Assembly: GCF_023093535.1 (NCBI RefSeq)
Contig: NZ_CP095757.1
Location: 2,914,001 to 2,978,000 of the forward strand
Source of the DNA: Halovivax limisalsi
GTDB lineage: Archaea > Halobacteriota > Halobacteria > Halobacteriales > Natrialbaceae
Length of the DNA stretch: 64,000 bases
Direction of reading: 5' to 3'
The notes under the pieces were generated by a model that saw only the letters and a program-made list of their open reading frames with translations, did not search any database and was not told the origin of the DNA. The position numbers were made by a program, and so were the translations under genes. The stretch's first letter is position 1. Each line of letters opens with the position of its first letter. Shown piece after piece: positions 8,151 through 50,548 of this stretch.

Positions 8151-8233
8151 GCGCGGGTAACCAAGCGGCCAACGGTGCAGCGCTTAGGACGCTGTGGTGT
8201 AGACCTCCGCAGGTTCGAATCCTGTCCCGCGCA
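8151..8233 (+). tRNA. tRNA-Leu (anticodon UAG)
   Basis: An 83-nt type II tRNA. The acceptor strand GCGCGGG (8151-8157) pairs with CCCGCGC (8226-8232), with A as discriminator. The anticodon arm AGCG-CTTAGGA-CGCT gives anticodon TAG. There is a long variable arm after the anticodon stem, as required for tRNA-Leu, and the T arm is CAGG-TTCGAAT-CCTG. CCA is not encoded. There is no intron in the anticodon loop. Its 3' 20 nt are repeated downstream (see the repeat entry). Confidence 0.96.
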
Positions 8234-8675
8234 TGCGAGACGCGAACGAAGTGAGCGTCTCGGTGTTGCGAACGGTGAGCGGAGCGAACCGTGAGCGCCG
8301 TCACGAACGAACGTGAGTGGCGTGGATGCGTCGCGAAGGATTCGAATTATACCGAGGTTCTGCGCGAAGCGCAGGTTCTCGGGAGTAGTTCGAAATCCTG
8401 TCCCGCGCATGCGAGACGCGAACGAAGTGAGCGTCTCGGTGTTGCGAACGGTGAGCGGAGCGAACCGTGAGCGCCGTCACGAACGAACGTGAGTGGCGTG
8501 GATGCGTCGCGAAGGATTCGAATTATACCGAGGTTCTGCGCGAAGCGCAGGTTCTCGGGAGTAGTTCGAATCCTGTCCCGCGCATGCGAGACGCGAACGA
8601 AGTGAGCGTCTCGGTGTTGCGAACGGTGAGCGGAGCGAACCGTGAGCGCCGTCACGAACGAACGTGAGTGGCGTG
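8214..8675 (+). repeat. Tandem direct repeat (2.6 copies of ~175 bp) seeded by the tRNA-Leu 3' end
   Basis: Copies lie at 8214-8388, 8389-8564 and 8565-8675 (last one truncated). Each begins with the last 20 nt of the tRNA (TTCGAATCCTGTCCCGCGCA); copy 2 carries one extra A within it. The rest of each unit holds short hairpins, such as stem CGAGACGC/GCGTCTCG (8236-8243/8255-8262), AACGGT/ACCGT, CACG/CGTG and CTGCGC-GAA-GCGCAG. The copies are otherwise nearly identical, which indicates recent duplication. Duplicated tRNA 3' ends are what tyrosine-recombinase integration at a tRNA leaves behind, but no integrase is nearby. The rest of the gap to 8816 shows nothing else I can name. Confidence 0.92.
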
Positions 8676-8816
8676 TATGAGCGCCACCATTCGAGGAGCC
8701 GGGCGGTGTCGAATCGGCGACCGTTTACGACCGAAGACGCGCCCTTTTGGGCCCCAGTTTCACCCCCAGCGACGCAGAGCAGAACGGCTTTACGTCGGGC
8801 GACACTTCCGTTGCGT

Positions 8817-44522: not shown

Positions 44523-45713
44523 ATGAGTTACCGGATCGGTCTGGTCGGCAAGCCCTCCGTGGGCAAGTCGACGCTGTTCAACGCGGCGACGATGAACGAC
44601 GTGCCCGAAGGGGCCTACCCGTTCACGACGATCGACCCCAGCATCGGCGAGGCGTACGTCCGAACGCCCTGCGCCGCGCCGGAATTCGACGAGACCTGCC
44701 AGCCCTCGGTCGGCGTCTGCGAGGACGGCACCCGGTTCGTCCCGGTCAAGCTGGTCGACGTCGCCGGGCTCGTTCCCGGCGCCCACGAGGGTCGCGGCCT
44801 CGGCAACCAGTTCCTCACCGACCTGAACGAGACCGACGTGCTAGTCCACGTGGTCGACTTCTCGGGGACGACCGATAGCGAGGGCGAGGCGACCGAGGGC
44901 CACGACCCGCGCGAGGACATCGACTTCCTCGAGGACGAGCTCGACGCGTGGTACCTGGCCATCCTGGAGAAGGGGATCCAGCGATACGGAGACAGACACG
45001 TCGAGGACGTCGATCCCGAGGACGTCCTCGGCGAGCAGCTCTCTGCCTTCGGCATCTCGCCGGCCGAGATCAAGCAGACCATCCTCGCGGTCGATCTGCC
45101 GGTCGCACCGCTCAAGTGGGACGAAGCGGAGCGGGCGGCCCTCGCCAGCGAGATCCGCAAGCGAACGAAGCCGATGACCATCGCGGCCAACAAGATGGAC
45201 ACCCCCGCCGCACAGGAAAACTGGGACGCGGTCACGACCGATCCCGCATACGACCACCTCGAATTCGTCCCCGTCTCCGCCCACGCCGAGAAGGCGCTGA
45301 AGAACGCGAACGAGCAGGGCGTCGTCGAGTACACGCCGGGCGAGGGCGACTTTTCGATCGTGGCGGACGACCTTCCCGCCGACCAGGAGGCCGGGCTCGA
45401 ACGGATCCGCGAGTTCGTCGACGCCTTCGGCGGCACCGGCGTCCAGCAGGCGCTCGAAACCGCGATCTTCGACGTCCTCGACCTGAAAGCCGTCTTCCCG
45501 GGTACGGCGTCGGGCACCTGGACGAAGGGCCCGTTCCGCGACTGCTTCCTCCTGCCCGAGGACGCGACCGCGGAGGACTTCGCGTACCACCTCCACTCCG
45601 ACATCGGCGACGGGTTCCTCCACGGCATCGACTGCCGCGACGACCGACAGGTCGGCGCCGATACGGTGCTGAACCACCGCGACGTCGTGGAAGTCGTCTC
45701 GACGAATCAGTGA
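44523..45713 (+). CDS. ychF: YchF/Obg-family GTPase (redox-regulated ATPase type)
   Basis: 396 residues. The P-loop is GKPSVGKSTLFNAAT; switch regions include AYPFTTIDPSIG and VDVAGLVPGAHEGRGLGNQF; the specificity motif is NKMD in TIAANKMDTPAAQ. A helical insert follows and the C-terminus is a TGS domain (VFPGTASGTW...HSDIGDGFLHGIDCRDDRQV). It is the archaeal/eukaryotic Ola1/YchF relative that binds ribosomes and hydrolyses ATP or GTP. The ATG at 44523 starts directly at the G domain. Confidence 0.93.
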   Translation: MSYRIGLVGKPSVGKSTLFNAATMNDVPEGAYPFTTIDPSIGEAYVRTPCAAPEFDETCQPSVGVCEDGTRFVPVKLVDVAGLVPGAHEGRGLGNQFLTDLNETDVLVHVVDFSGTTDSEGEATEGHDPREDIDFLEDELDAWYLAILEKGIQRYGDRHVEDVDPEDVLGEQLSAFGISPAEIKQTILAVDLPVAPLKWDEAERAALASEIRKRTKPMTIAANKMDTPAAQENWDAVTTDPAYDHLEFVPVSAHAEKALKNANEQGVVEYTPGEGDFSIVADDLPADQEAGLERIREFVDAFGGTGVQQALETAIFDVLDLKAVFPGTASGTWTKGPFRDCFLLPEDATAEDFAYHLHSDIGDGFLHGIDCRDDRQVGADTVLNHRDVVEVVSTNQ

Positions 45714-46157: not shown

Positions 46158-47378
46158 ATGAGGGACGACGACACGTCCGGAGCTCAGCAGCCGTACTCGC
46201 AACGTGGACAGCCAGCACCGCAGTTCCAACAGGGACAGCCACCACAGCAGTTCCAACAGGGACAGCCACCACACCAGTTCCAGCCACCACAGCAATTCCA
46301 ACAGGGAGAGCCAACACAGCAGTTCCAGCAAGGCCAATCGCCCCAGCAAATCCCGCAGGGACAACCGTCGCAACAGTCCCAGCAGGTCCCAACACCGCAG
46401 CAGTCCTCACCACAGCCAACAGGCGGCCACACAACCGGGAATCAGCCGGTCCAGCATTCGCCACGGCAGGGCGGTCAGTCGGCACAGCAGCAGCCGTCGC
46501 AGGCAATTCCACCCCAGTCGTTCGAGCTCGGTCCACGACCCGCGTCGCAATCAGCCCCACAGTACGGGTCCCCCCAGATCGCTCCACAGGGTCACCGATC
46601 GCCCCAAGAAGGACCACAGATGGGACAGCAGAGCCCACAGACGATACAACAGCGCCCGCAGACGGGAGGCCAACAGTCATCCCAGCAAATGGAATTCCCC
46701 CGTCGTCAGTTCGGCGGATCGTCGCCGTCGCAGCTGTCTCGACCCGACGTCCGAGCGCAGTCCACACAACCGATTCCGTCGCAGCAATCGACCGGAACGG
46801 GGATCCGGCGGGAGCCGACTCAGGGGGAACAGGTCCCGCACACGGGCGTCCAGCAGACTCCATGGCAGGGCTACCAGTCGGGTATCGAAGGATCGATGCC
46901 GTCGAGCCAGTCGATCCCGGGCCAGACGCAATCGTACGCCCCGCAACAACGGTCGACTCCGCCCCACGCAGGAGGAGCCGGGCAGGGGACACTCTACCAG
47001 CCCGGACAATCGGCACTCGGTGAACGGACGACGGCCTCGCAGCTCGAAGGGAGCCAATCGAGTACGGGAGCGGTCGTCGACATGTTCGATTCCCCCGAAG
47101 AACTCACGATATTGGCGGATCTGCCGGGCTGCACCGGCGAGGACGTGAAGGTTCGTACCTCGAACAACACCCTCTACATCACGGCCGAGCGATCGGCGGA
47201 CATCGACGGCGATTCCCAGCCCGTGATGCACGAACGCGCGGACAGGATCGAACGATCCATCCCCTTACCCGCCGACATCGAGGCGGAGGAGGCAGACGCC
47301 TCTTGCGAGAACGGCGTCTGTCGCATCACGCTCCCGAAGAAAGAGGAATCCAAGCAGCGCGAGATCGGGATCCACTGA
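46158..47378 (+). CDS. Small heat-shock protein (Hsp20) with ~300-residue Gln-rich prion-like N-terminal domain
   Basis: 406 residues. Residues 1 to about 300 are dominated by Gln, Pro, Ser and Gly and contain a nine-residue tandem repeat, consensus QFQQGQPPQ (46221-46400, seven units, one short). Hydrophobic residues are few and acidic ones rare, which is odd for this acidic proteome. The alpha-crystallin domain follows from about 306: VVDMFDSPEELTILADLPGC, EDVKVRTSNNTLYITAERS, SIPLPADIEAEEADASCENG, VCRITLPKK. The normal sHsp N-terminal arm is here replaced by a prion-like domain, so it may coassemble with aggregates or condensates. Confidence 0.88.
   Translation: MRDDDTSGAQQPYSQRGQPAPQFQQGQPPQQFQQGQPPHQFQPPQQFQQGEPTQQFQQGQSPQQIPQGQPSQQSQQVPTPQQSSPQPTGGHTTGNQPVQHSPRQGGQSAQQQPSQAIPPQSFELGPRPASQSAPQYGSPQIAPQGHRSPQEGPQMGQQSPQTIQQRPQTGGQQSSQQMEFPRRQFGGSSPSQLSRPDVRAQSTQPIPSQQSTGTGIRREPTQGEQVPHTGVQQTPWQGYQSGIEGSMPSSQSIPGQTQSYAPQQRSTPPHAGGAGQGTLYQPGQSALGERTTASQLEGSQSSTGAVVDMFDSPEELTILADLPGCTGEDVKVRTSNNTLYITAERSADIDGDSQPVMHERADRIERSIPLPADIEAEEADASCENGVCRITLPKKEESKQREIGIH
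46221..46400 (+). repeat. 27-bp tandem repeat coding for QFQQGQPPQ units
   Basis: Seven in-frame units within the Hsp20-fusion gene: 46221-46247, 46248-46274, a short 18-bp unit 46275-46292, then 46293-46319, 46320-46346, 46347-46373 and 46374-46400. The first two are nearly identical at DNA level; later ones drift. Such arrays change length by slippage. Confidence 0.85.
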
Positions 47379-47510: not shown

Positions 47511-47756
47511 TCAGCGAATGTATCGATCTGGCGGCGTCTCGCCCTCGGCGGGCGAACTCACGGGTAGATCGACGAGCGGCTGCAGGTAAGTGATCCGGAC
47601 GAGGTTCGGCCGACCGGTCGGTTCGACGACCGGATCGGTCGCCCGTTCGGGTACAGAAAGCGTCTCGCCCGCGTGAACGACCTGCGAGACGACTTCGTAC
47701 CGCCTATCGGTCCGACAATCTGCTGCCACCTTGGAACACATGCTAATGAAACGCAC
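47511..47756 (-). CDS. Possible small protein with TATA-matched start
   Basis: About 76-81 residues, starting at a GTG at 47756 or an ATG at 47741. A TTATAC TATA box on the minus strand (47781-47786) lies 25 nt before the GTG. Codons favour G/C at third positions. The sequence (YEVVSQVVHAGETLSVPE, RPNLVRITYLQPLVDLPV) looks like beta strands but matches no family I know. The gap 47757-47984 shares the racemase promoter side. Confidence 0.4.
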   Translation of the reverse strand: MRFISMCSKVAADCRTDRRYEVVSQVVHAGETLSVPERATDPVVEPTGRPNLVRITYLQPLVDLPVSSPAEGETPPDRYIR

Positions 47757-47984: not shown

Positions 47985-48719
47985 ATGAGTTACGATCGAG
48001 CGCCTCCGGACGACCTGGCCACGGTTGGAATCCTCGGGGGCATGAGCAGCGAGTCGACGCGCGAGTACTACCGGGGAATCGACGAGGGGATCACCGACGA
48101 GCTCGGCGGCCACAACGCGGGCGACCTCGTCATCCGCAGCATCAACTTCGCCGAGATCGAACGCTGCATTCGGACCGACCGGTGGGACCGGGCCGGCGAC
48201 CTCCTCGTCGACGCGGCGCTCGACCTCGAGGCCGCCGGCGCCGATTTCGTCGTCATGGCGACGAACACGATGCACCGCGTCGCGCCCCGACTGGTCGAGG
48301 CCCTCTCGATCCCGTTCGTCCACATCGTCGACGTCGCCGCCGAGGCGATCCGGGCCGACGGGCTCGAGACGGTCGGCGTCCTGGGAACCGCGGCCGTGAT
48401 GGACGGGGACTTCTACCACGACCGATTCGCCGACCGCGGCATCGAGACGCTGGTTCCCGACGCGGACGACAGGGTCGCAGTCAACCGGATCATCTTCGAC
48501 GAACTGACCCACGGCGAGGTGGTGGCCGACTCCCGTGAGCGCTATCTGGAGAGCATCGATCGGCTGGTCGATCGAGGCGCCGAGGGTGTCGTCCTGGGCT
48601 GTACGGAGATCGAACTGCTCGTCTCGCAGGCCGACCGGCCCGGGACGCCGATGTACGATACGACGGCGTTGCACGTCGAACGGGCGGTCGAACGAAGTCT
48701 GGACGGTCGGGGGAACTGA
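47985..48719 (+). CDS. Aspartate/glutamate racemase family protein (YgeA-like)
   Basis: 244 residues. Two Asp/Glu-racemase halves are visible: TVGILGGMSSESTREYYRG, FVVMATNTMHRVAPRLVE, FVHIVDVAAEAIRADG, and GAEGVVLGCTEIELLVSQ. The second catalytic Cys (LGCTE) is present, while the first is Thr (ATNTMH). This Thr/Cys pair is that of the E. coli YgeA L-Asp/Glu-specific racemase rather than the two-Cys aspartate racemases. A TATATA lies at about 47946-47951. D-amino acid supply for an unknown use. Confidence 0.85.
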   Translation: MSYDRAPPDDLATVGILGGMSSESTREYYRGIDEGITDELGGHNAGDLVIRSINFAEIERCIRTDRWDRAGDLLVDAALDLEAAGADFVVMATNTMHRVAPRLVEALSIPFVHIVDVAAEAIRADGLETVGVLGTAAVMDGDFYHDRFADRGIETLVPDADDRVAVNRIIFDELTHGEVVADSRERYLESIDRLVDRGAEGVVLGCTEIELLVSQADRPGTPMYDTTALHVERAVERSLDGRGN

Positions 48720-49168: not shown

Positions 49169-50548
49169 TCAGTACTCGACGACGGCACCGTCTATCCGCG
49201 ACCGGGTCACCTCGAGGGTGATGCGCTCGATCGGCGTCGACGGGGTGTCTTCGCCATCGCCTCGCATGCGATCGCCGGCGATCGCGATCTCGACGGAGTC
49301 CTCGAGGTCGCCGTCACGATGGCGTGCCCGAAGCGTGTCTGTGACGTCGACGAACTGGTTCTGCGGCGGGTGTGCCGGCGGCGCGATCCAGAAGTGAAAA
49401 CAGCCGGCGCAGCGGTCGGACCCCGGATCGGGGTGTGACGACGGCGGATCGACGAAGACCCGGCCGTGAAACCACCCCGTCTCCGGCATCGCGATGTCCC
49501 GGGCCGCGACCACCACGCGGCCCGGCGCCTCGCCGGTGAGATACGGTTCGACCGTGGCCAGATCGACCGTACCCGAGAGGGTTGTGTCGGCGCCGAACGT
49601 CACGTCCTCCCCGAACGCGACCGTCGTCGGCGTTTCGAGGGACACGCTGGCCGTCCGGCGATGGGTCGACGGGTCGACCGCTGCCGGCGCCCCGTCGATT
49701 CGCGTCGGGTACGTGTACGATCGATCGGGCAGCTCGAGTACGTCCCGGACCGACACCGCGTCGACGACGGTCCCGTGCCTGTCGACCAGGTGCTCCTCGA
49801 AGGTCCAGTCGAGCCACGCCTCGTCGTCGGGATTCGGATGGCCGCGCGCGTTCCACTCCCACCACAGCCGGTCCACCATGCCGTGGTGGGCCCAGAACGC
49901 CGGATCGTTCGGGGACAGGCCCGTCGCCATGTCGCCGCCGACCCGGATGTGGACGTAGTCGTGGGCGGGCGACTCGAACGCCCCGGCGCCCGCACGGACG
50001 GATTCCCGCCTGTCTTCCGTCCCGGCCCAGCCCCCGATCGCGCGGAGGAAGTTGGGATCCTCGAGCCGGGGCGCGACTCGCTCGCGACCCGAGATCGTCG
50101 CGTCGAGCGCATTGTTCGGCGTCCGGCTGGCGTTCGTGAACGGCTCGCGTCGGAACAGCGCCGGCAAGGCCTGGTGGTCGAGCCAGTTCCAGTACGGGAG
50201 CGCGAAGGCCTCGGTGCCGGTCACCTCGCGGATGATCTCCTCGTGGTAGTGGAGGTACGCCCGGTGCCACGCGAGGAACAGCCAGTTGCCGTGCTCGCAG
50301 TTGCGAAAGCGCTTCAAATTCCCGTGGATGCGCACCTGATTGTCCCAGTTACGAGGGTCGCTCTCCGGCAGCGATCGCAGCGTCTCGATCCCCTCGGCCC
50401 ACGTCCCCAAGATGTCGTTCGGGTCCGCGTCGGCAAGCGACCGCACCGGTCGCCGTTTCGGGACGGTCCCCGCCTCAGCCAGCCCCGTCCCCAGTACGCC
50501 CAGTCCAGCAATCGCTCCGCCCGTCTCGAGAAACGTCCGTCGTCTCAT
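49169..50548 (-). CDS. Tyrosinase-family type 3 copper oxidase, Tat-exported
   Basis: 459 residues. A Tat signal (MRRRTFLETGGAIAGLGVLG) opens the protein. CuA ligands are apparent as H75 (RIHG), H86 (CEHGNW) and H95 (LAWHRAYLHYHEE). CuB ligands are H196 and H200 (SPAHDYVH) and a His of WAHHGMVDRLWWEW. The CxH pair (C84/H86) fits the thioether seen in fungal tyrosinases. The C-terminal ~150 residues form a beta-rich domain like that covering the active site in plant/fungal enzymes, with a CAGC pair. It should oxidise phenols or diphenols outside the cell. Confidence 0.9.
   Translation of the reverse strand: MRRRTFLETGGAIAGLGVLGTGLAEAGTVPKRRPVRSLADADPNDILGTWAEGIETLRSLPESDPRNWDNQVRIHGNLKRFRNCEHGNWLFLAWHRAYLHYHEEIIREVTGTEAFALPYWNWLDHQALPALFRREPFTNASRTPNNALDATISGRERVAPRLEDPNFLRAIGGWAGTEDRRESVRAGAGAFESPAHDYVHIRVGGDMATGLSPNDPAFWAHHGMVDRLWWEWNARGHPNPDDEAWLDWTFEEHLVDRHGTVVDAVSVRDVLELPDRSYTYPTRIDGAPAAVDPSTHRRTASVSLETPTTVAFGEDVTFGADTTLSGTVDLATVEPYLTGEAPGRVVVAARDIAMPETGWFHGRVFVDPPSSHPDPGSDRCAGCFHFWIAPPAHPPQNQFVDVTDTLRARHRDGDLEDSVEIAIAGDRMRGDGEDTPSTPIERITLEVTRSRIDGAVVEY

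Follow-up and report, generated by a model that had tools for sequence, protein, structure and literature searches.

Introduction

Prion-like arms on small heat-shock proteins (sHSPs) are best known from eukaryotes. Yeast Hsp42 cannot act as a sequestrase without its disordered PrLD (PMC6813348; PMC13287201), and the Dictyostelium sHSP HSP48 forms a condensate in vivo through a disordered arm (PMC6584373). Archaea are described as having far fewer glutamine-rich (Q-rich) low-complexity domains than eukaryotes (PMC11132505), and a review of archaeal sHSPs mentions neither glutamine nor condensates (PMC9133787). In the open-licence literature that we searched, no paper brings together haloarchaea, Q-rich sequence and sHSPs.

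Here we describe a gene that encodes a Q-rich arm and an sHSP as one protein (Table 1). It lies in the window, a stretch of 64,000 nucleotides (G000:C1:2914001-2978000) from a one-contig, 3.9 Mb haloarchaeal genome. The closest working analogue is yeast Hsp42, in which a long disordered low-complexity N-terminal region likewise stands ahead of a C-terminal alpha-crystallin domain (ACD). The window protein differs from Hsp42 in that its ACD is archaeal and its arm is nearly Asn-free and Pro-rich; moreover, the haloarchaeal arm is usually a separate gene, and an additional small beta protein accompanies it. HSP48 is similar in being an sHSP with a disordered arm, but that arm is C-terminal, strongly basic and partnered by polyphosphate, whereas the arm in the window is N-terminal, neutral and Q-rich. 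With the archaeal Hsp14/Hsp20 family (NCBIfam NF041799, NF041800) the protein shares the ACD and the I-x-I tail, although it has GVC in place of GVL and carries the Q-rich arm in addition, and it scores below both equivalog cut-offs (72 vs 100 and 56 vs 140, respectively).

Table 1. Positions in the window of the fused gene, its parts and its neighbors.
Feature	Position	Strand	Basis
YchF/Obg-type GTPase, left flank; conserved synteny marker outside the module	44529..45713	+	annotation, synteny
Q-rich disordered arm and small heat-shock protein, fused gene, 406 aa	46158..47378	+	ORF, Pfam
Q/P/S/G-rich low-complexity arm, residues 1-305	46158..47072	+	composition; counterpart in relatives is a separate upstream Q-rich gene
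27-nt tandem repeat (9-residue, QFQQGQPPQ-like)	46206..46327	+	TRF, lag-9 test
Alpha-crystallin (HSP20) domain and C-terminal tail	47073..47375	+	Pfam PF00011; operon-type HMM score
Cys388, GVC replacing GVL, diagnostic of the subfamily	47319..47321	+	motif comparison
C-terminal I-x-I motif, IGI, residues 403-405	47364..47372	+	motif comparison
Small beta protein, third module component, 81 aa from GTG 47756, possible ATG 47741	47511..47756	-	similarity, HMM
Asp/Glu racemase, right flank; conserved synteny marker outside the module	47985..48719	+	annotation, synteny

Results and Discussion

A Glutamine-Rich Arm and an Alpha-Crystallin Domain in One Frame

The gene is a single open frame of 406 codons. 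The original prediction, made from the letters of the window, had described about 300 Gln/Pro/Ser/Gly-rich residues followed by an ACD, and the ORF, its coordinates and both of its parts were confirmed. The arm consists of 26.9% Q, 14.8% P, 12.1% S, 12.1% G and 0.3% N, and Pfam PF00011 (HSP20) matches residues 310-405 with an E-value of 4.8e-14 (52.7 bits against a gathering threshold of 20.8). Nothing else in the window comes near the arm in Q content: it reaches 29 Q in 60 residues, compared to 11 in the next ORF in any frame. Its low acidity, also noted there, is borne out by a D+E content of 4.3%, whereas the ACD has 22.8% and five neighboring genes have 15-20%. The charge-hydropathy value of the 305 residues before the ACD (-0.193) predicts them to be disordered. 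The nine-residue tandem repeat is real but limited to the first ~80 residues, where identity at a lag of nine is 0.48 versus 0.21 in shuffled sequences (0 of 5000 as high; TRF period 27, 4.9 copies), and the same shuffle test gives no signal in residues 81-305.

The original prediction had further called the arm prion-like. Its maximum of 35 Q+N per 80 residues is indeed above the usual prion-domain criterion of 30. Little Asn and much Pro disfavor amyloid, however, and in both respects the arm departs from yeast prion domains. Despite passing the Q+N criterion, the arm is by composition a poor amyloid-prion candidate, and the term in its yeast sense is not supported.

The ACD belongs to a distinct sHSP subfamily. 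The A-x-x-x-n-G-v-L motif is present with its final Leu replaced by Cys, as across the subfamily; this Cys occurs in all 25 operon-type (split-gene) members, in the window, and in loci L113, L121 and L091, and in none of 27 control sHSPs, of which 17 match the motif pattern. The I-x-I tail is the usual sHSP oligomerization motif and is retained in the GVC subfamily as I-x-I/V/F. An HMM of operon-type ACDs from which the window was left out gives 115 bits for the window, 98-103 bits for L119 and the remaining fused forms, and no more than 87 bits for ordinary sHSPs. In a tree of the ACD (~100 columns), the operon-type members group together (support 97/91), the window groups with L113 (93/57), and a single clade of operon-type members plus the window is not rejected (p-AU 0.086). 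The branch points of the fused forms are not resolved by this tree, and neither is the proposal that they make up a single clade within the operon clade. Fusion from an operon and splitting of a fused gene are thus indistinguishable, and there may have been one fusion or several.

The Two Parts Are Neighboring Genes in Most Relatives

The nearest relatives of the ACD, in Halobiforma nitratireducens (G123, L052) and in G060 (L059), are shorter sHSPs with a separate Q-rich gene just upstream on the same strand. An HMM built from three ACDs, those of this nearest-relative set, was run on 391 genomes, a sample of the class; 28 genomes scored 98 bits or more, and one further true member (G010) scored 92. 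These carriers (~29 of 391) span 14 genera and five families. A Q-rich ORF stands directly upstream of the sHSP in 24 of the loci that we read from these genomes and, from plasmid records, in H. lipolyticum. Where complete, the split Q-rich ORFs encode about 220-460 aa with 20-52% Q; sequence and length vary greatly, and it is mainly composition that is kept. The split-type sHSPs themselves also carry short Q/P/G-rich arms. Spacing between the two genes is -4 to +17 nt where the ATG start is clear, with a 4-nt ATGA overlap being frequent, and such close spacing or overlap makes translational coupling probable.

We asked of every locus alike whether a Q-rich ORF lies upstream of the sHSP or a Q-rich arm in frame with it. 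Such an ORF or arm occurs at 29 of 31 subfamily loci and at none of 33 loci of ordinary haloarchaeal sHSPs. The control loci include repeats of one genome region (about 27 are distinct), and the raw control count was 1/34 until L022, which is the G123 module locus, was set aside. In Halorubrum sp. Atlit-26R (L091), the GVC sHSP is present and a Q-rich neighbor is absent at the locus. Besides the window, a Q-rich arm and an ACD share a single ORF in G347 (L113, with an arm of about 228 residues) and in Salinirubellus sp. SYNS196 (L121, with a Q/V-rich arm), and more distant sHSPs with shorter Q-rich arms occur in G297 and G357 (L117 and L118). The same fusion, which the original prediction had proposed to seek in other haloarchaea, therefore exists there. 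The refuting condition that it had set, that homologues always keep the two parts as separate genes, describes most relatives, in which they are separate neighbors, but fails for L113 and L121. At least three genera have the Q-rich region and the sHSP fused, and many more have them adjacent with the Q-rich gene upstream, which makes a joint function, such as recruitment to assemblies or their scaffolding, much likelier than it would be from a single sequence. In G170, the arm of a related sHSP (L119:4554-5786) is not Q-rich but a long Arg/Glu/Pro repeat.

The Q-rich frame of the split homologues is under purifying selection. Seven related split-gene pairs gave dN/dS values of 0.27, 0.21, 0.37, 0.27, 0.29, 0.34 and 0.66 for this frame, i.e., 0.2-0.4 in six of the seven, and in every pair (7/7) all other frames gave higher values. 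Public annotation does not always follow this frame. For Halobaculum limi (L122, NZ_CP120469.1), an antisense ORF of the Q-rich gene is called as a "hypothetical protein," and for Salinirubellus sp. SYNS196 (NZ_CP147842.1), an antisense ORF is annotated and the fused sHSP is missed altogether. The annotation of H. lipolyticum places the Q-rich gene correctly, with a one-base overlap with the Hsp20 gene. The module thereby exposes genes that public annotation has missed or called on the wrong strand.

Q-rich proteins are not exclusive to the module. Several stand-alone Q/G/R/H-rich proteins with up to 44% Q exist in haloarchaea (L134, L135, L136, L137, L143, L144 and a truncated one, L141), with no sHSP within ~3 kb of their genes, so that Q-richness alone needs no sHSP. 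Two of them, L136 and L137, share a similar terminal GQFT motif.

Eight of the split Q-rich proteins (L096, L097, L099, L105, L114, L115, L052 and L123) have a conserved helical domain of ~100 residues near the C-terminus, which is predicted as a four-helix bundle for seven of the eight (pLDDT 92). This domain is absent from the arm in the window and from the other fused forms. Its best structural match is to copper storage proteins (Csp3; TM 0.85, Foldseek E = 6e-3), at 14% identity and with 0-2 Cys per domain and no Cys cluster; the predicted fold is alike, but the Cys-lined bundle of a copper storage protein is missing, and we rejected that assignment. A phasin assignment was also rejected, with a match (E = 0.017) far below the cut-off.

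A Third Gene Encodes a Small Beta Protein

The original prediction included neither the split-gene arrangement of most relatives nor a third linked gene, which encodes a small protein of ~60 residues with the consensus YRLVSELxRPGDxLDxP...VRVTYLKPV. In the window, this gene is convergent with the sHSP gene; in relatives, it lies downstream on the same strand, as in the 16 loci that we read. The window's copy was first detected by pairwise similarity and matches an HMM of the protein with an E-value of 1.7e-23, its own sequence being among the model's 15 rows. Of the 391 genomes, 18 gave a match to the HMM; in 17 of these it was at E < 1e-22, each time beside a module sHSP, and the eighteenth, G185, gave a weak match (3.5e-6). 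Under a hypergeometric model, the probability that all 17 would lie by chance among 28 of 391 genomes is about 1e-22, a figure that ignores shared descent. The small protein is thus specific to the module, although the Halobaculum module loci do not have it, and a search of plasmids did not find it. G413 holds a second copy on another contig (L153:2686-2970), around which no sHSP or Q-rich gene was detected in the 6.5 kb read. The AlphaFold model of the small protein is a three-stranded sheet with a core pLDDT above 90, and a Foldseek search against the PDB returned nothing below E = 0.4.

A Candidate Scaffold for Chaperone and Clients

The window gene is the single-chain version of a three-part haloarchaeal module composed of a Q-rich disordered protein, a GVC sHSP and a ~60-residue beta protein. 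Of this module, the data establish the fusion, a gene pair conserved among relatives, a third gene specific to it and purifying selection on the Q-rich frame where the genes are split. As to mechanism, our best reading, to which we give about an even chance, is that the Q-rich arm acts by analogy to Hsp42 as a disordered scaffold that would concentrate the chaperone and its clients. The arm, with little charge, few hydrophobic residues and multivalent Q/P/S/G, would under stress self-associate or co-assemble with further Q-rich chains. The ACD, for its part, would oligomerize through its I-x-I tail and bind partly unfolded clients. The sHSP would be tied to the Q-rich scaffold in cis where the two are fused and in trans where they are split, and scaffold and sHSP together would gather clients into reversible assemblies. 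Self-association, client sequestration, induction by stress and the role of the small beta protein are steps that we infer. Of the original proposal that the chaperone is recruited to, or forms, assemblies, the part that gains is the tie itself, since the Q-rich region is recurrently linked to the sHSP; the wording "prion-like" does not stand, and condensation or reversible aggregation would be a further step.

On a more tentative note, and with the balance of probability somewhat against it, the module could form a haloarchaeal quality-control body in which the Q-rich scaffold, the GVC sHSP and the small beta protein as an adaptor make reversible stress condensates in near-saturated KCl, storing or sequestering proteins. 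If true, Hsp42-type sequestration would have a prokaryotic equivalent, encoded by an accessory module in which some lineages have joined scaffold and chaperone into a single chain. In this archaeal system, the putative low-complexity scaffold and the chaperone occur in nature both fused and split, so that simple deletions and swaps could show whether the two must act together. The setting is a cytoplasm with molar KCl, a medium in which the physics of condensates is little understood.

An alternative that we consider unlikely, but the strongest of the rivals, is a dedicated chaperone-client pair: the Q-rich protein would be an aggregation-prone structural or polymer-forming protein, the sHSP a private chaperone that would hold it in solution or steer its assembly, and fusion would do no more than fix a 1:1 pairing. 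The tight spacing with the Q-rich gene first would suit such a pair, and the predicted four-helix bundle of eight Q-rich proteins suggests that these are more than linkers. Alpha-crystallin proteins can serve structural assemblies, as in the example of CotM of the Bacillus spore coat that is cited in PMC6584373. The Q-rich proteins nevertheless give no sign of a defined structure that they form; little beyond composition is conserved among them, over their wide range of lengths, and the fused forms are missing the folded helical domain.

Somewhat less probable again is that the Q-rich region is nothing other than an entropic N-terminal arm, which would tune solubility or oligomer size with no condensate. 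The N-terminal regions of sHSPs vary widely in general (PMC9133787), and the short arms of the split-type sHSPs would fit this reading, but most carriers have the Q-rich part as a separate, long and selected gene, an arrangement that a simple arm would not call for. That the window gene is an artefact, with a frameshift or assembly error joining two overlapping genes in this genome, is very improbable even though relatives have two genes, often with a 4-nt overlap in another frame, because the frame is open over 416 codons with Q-rich composition continuing right up to the ACD, L113 and L121 are independent single-ORF versions, each from another genus, and the split frame is conserved; this possibility, which the original prediction had named as its refutation, is accordingly disfavored.

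A Variable Slot in the Genome

The fused gene occupies a slot between the GTPase and racemase genes. In four other genomes of the genus these flanking genes are still adjacent, with ~0.6-0.9 kb and unrelated cargo between them, which shows that the fused gene is an accessory gene and that the site is variable. The view that it is a conserved gene of the genus was rejected, as it is absent from the syntenic slot in 4/4 of these genomes. A virus-borne origin was also considered and rejected; a search of viral contigs gave no relative. In three of the siblings (L048, L049 and L050), the slot holds a minus-strand pair that is PIN-type toxin/antitoxin-like by eye, and in the fourth (L051) it holds a different ORF. 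Adjoining the racemase gene, a tyrosinase-domain protein with a twin-arginine-like leader is encoded at 49169-50548 on the minus strand. Elsewhere in the window (8151-8679), a tRNA-Leu precedes a tandem array in which a 176-bp unit, opening each time with the tRNA 3' end, is present in 2.7 copies; the array resembles what successive integrations or duplications leave behind when they occur at a tRNA attachment site.
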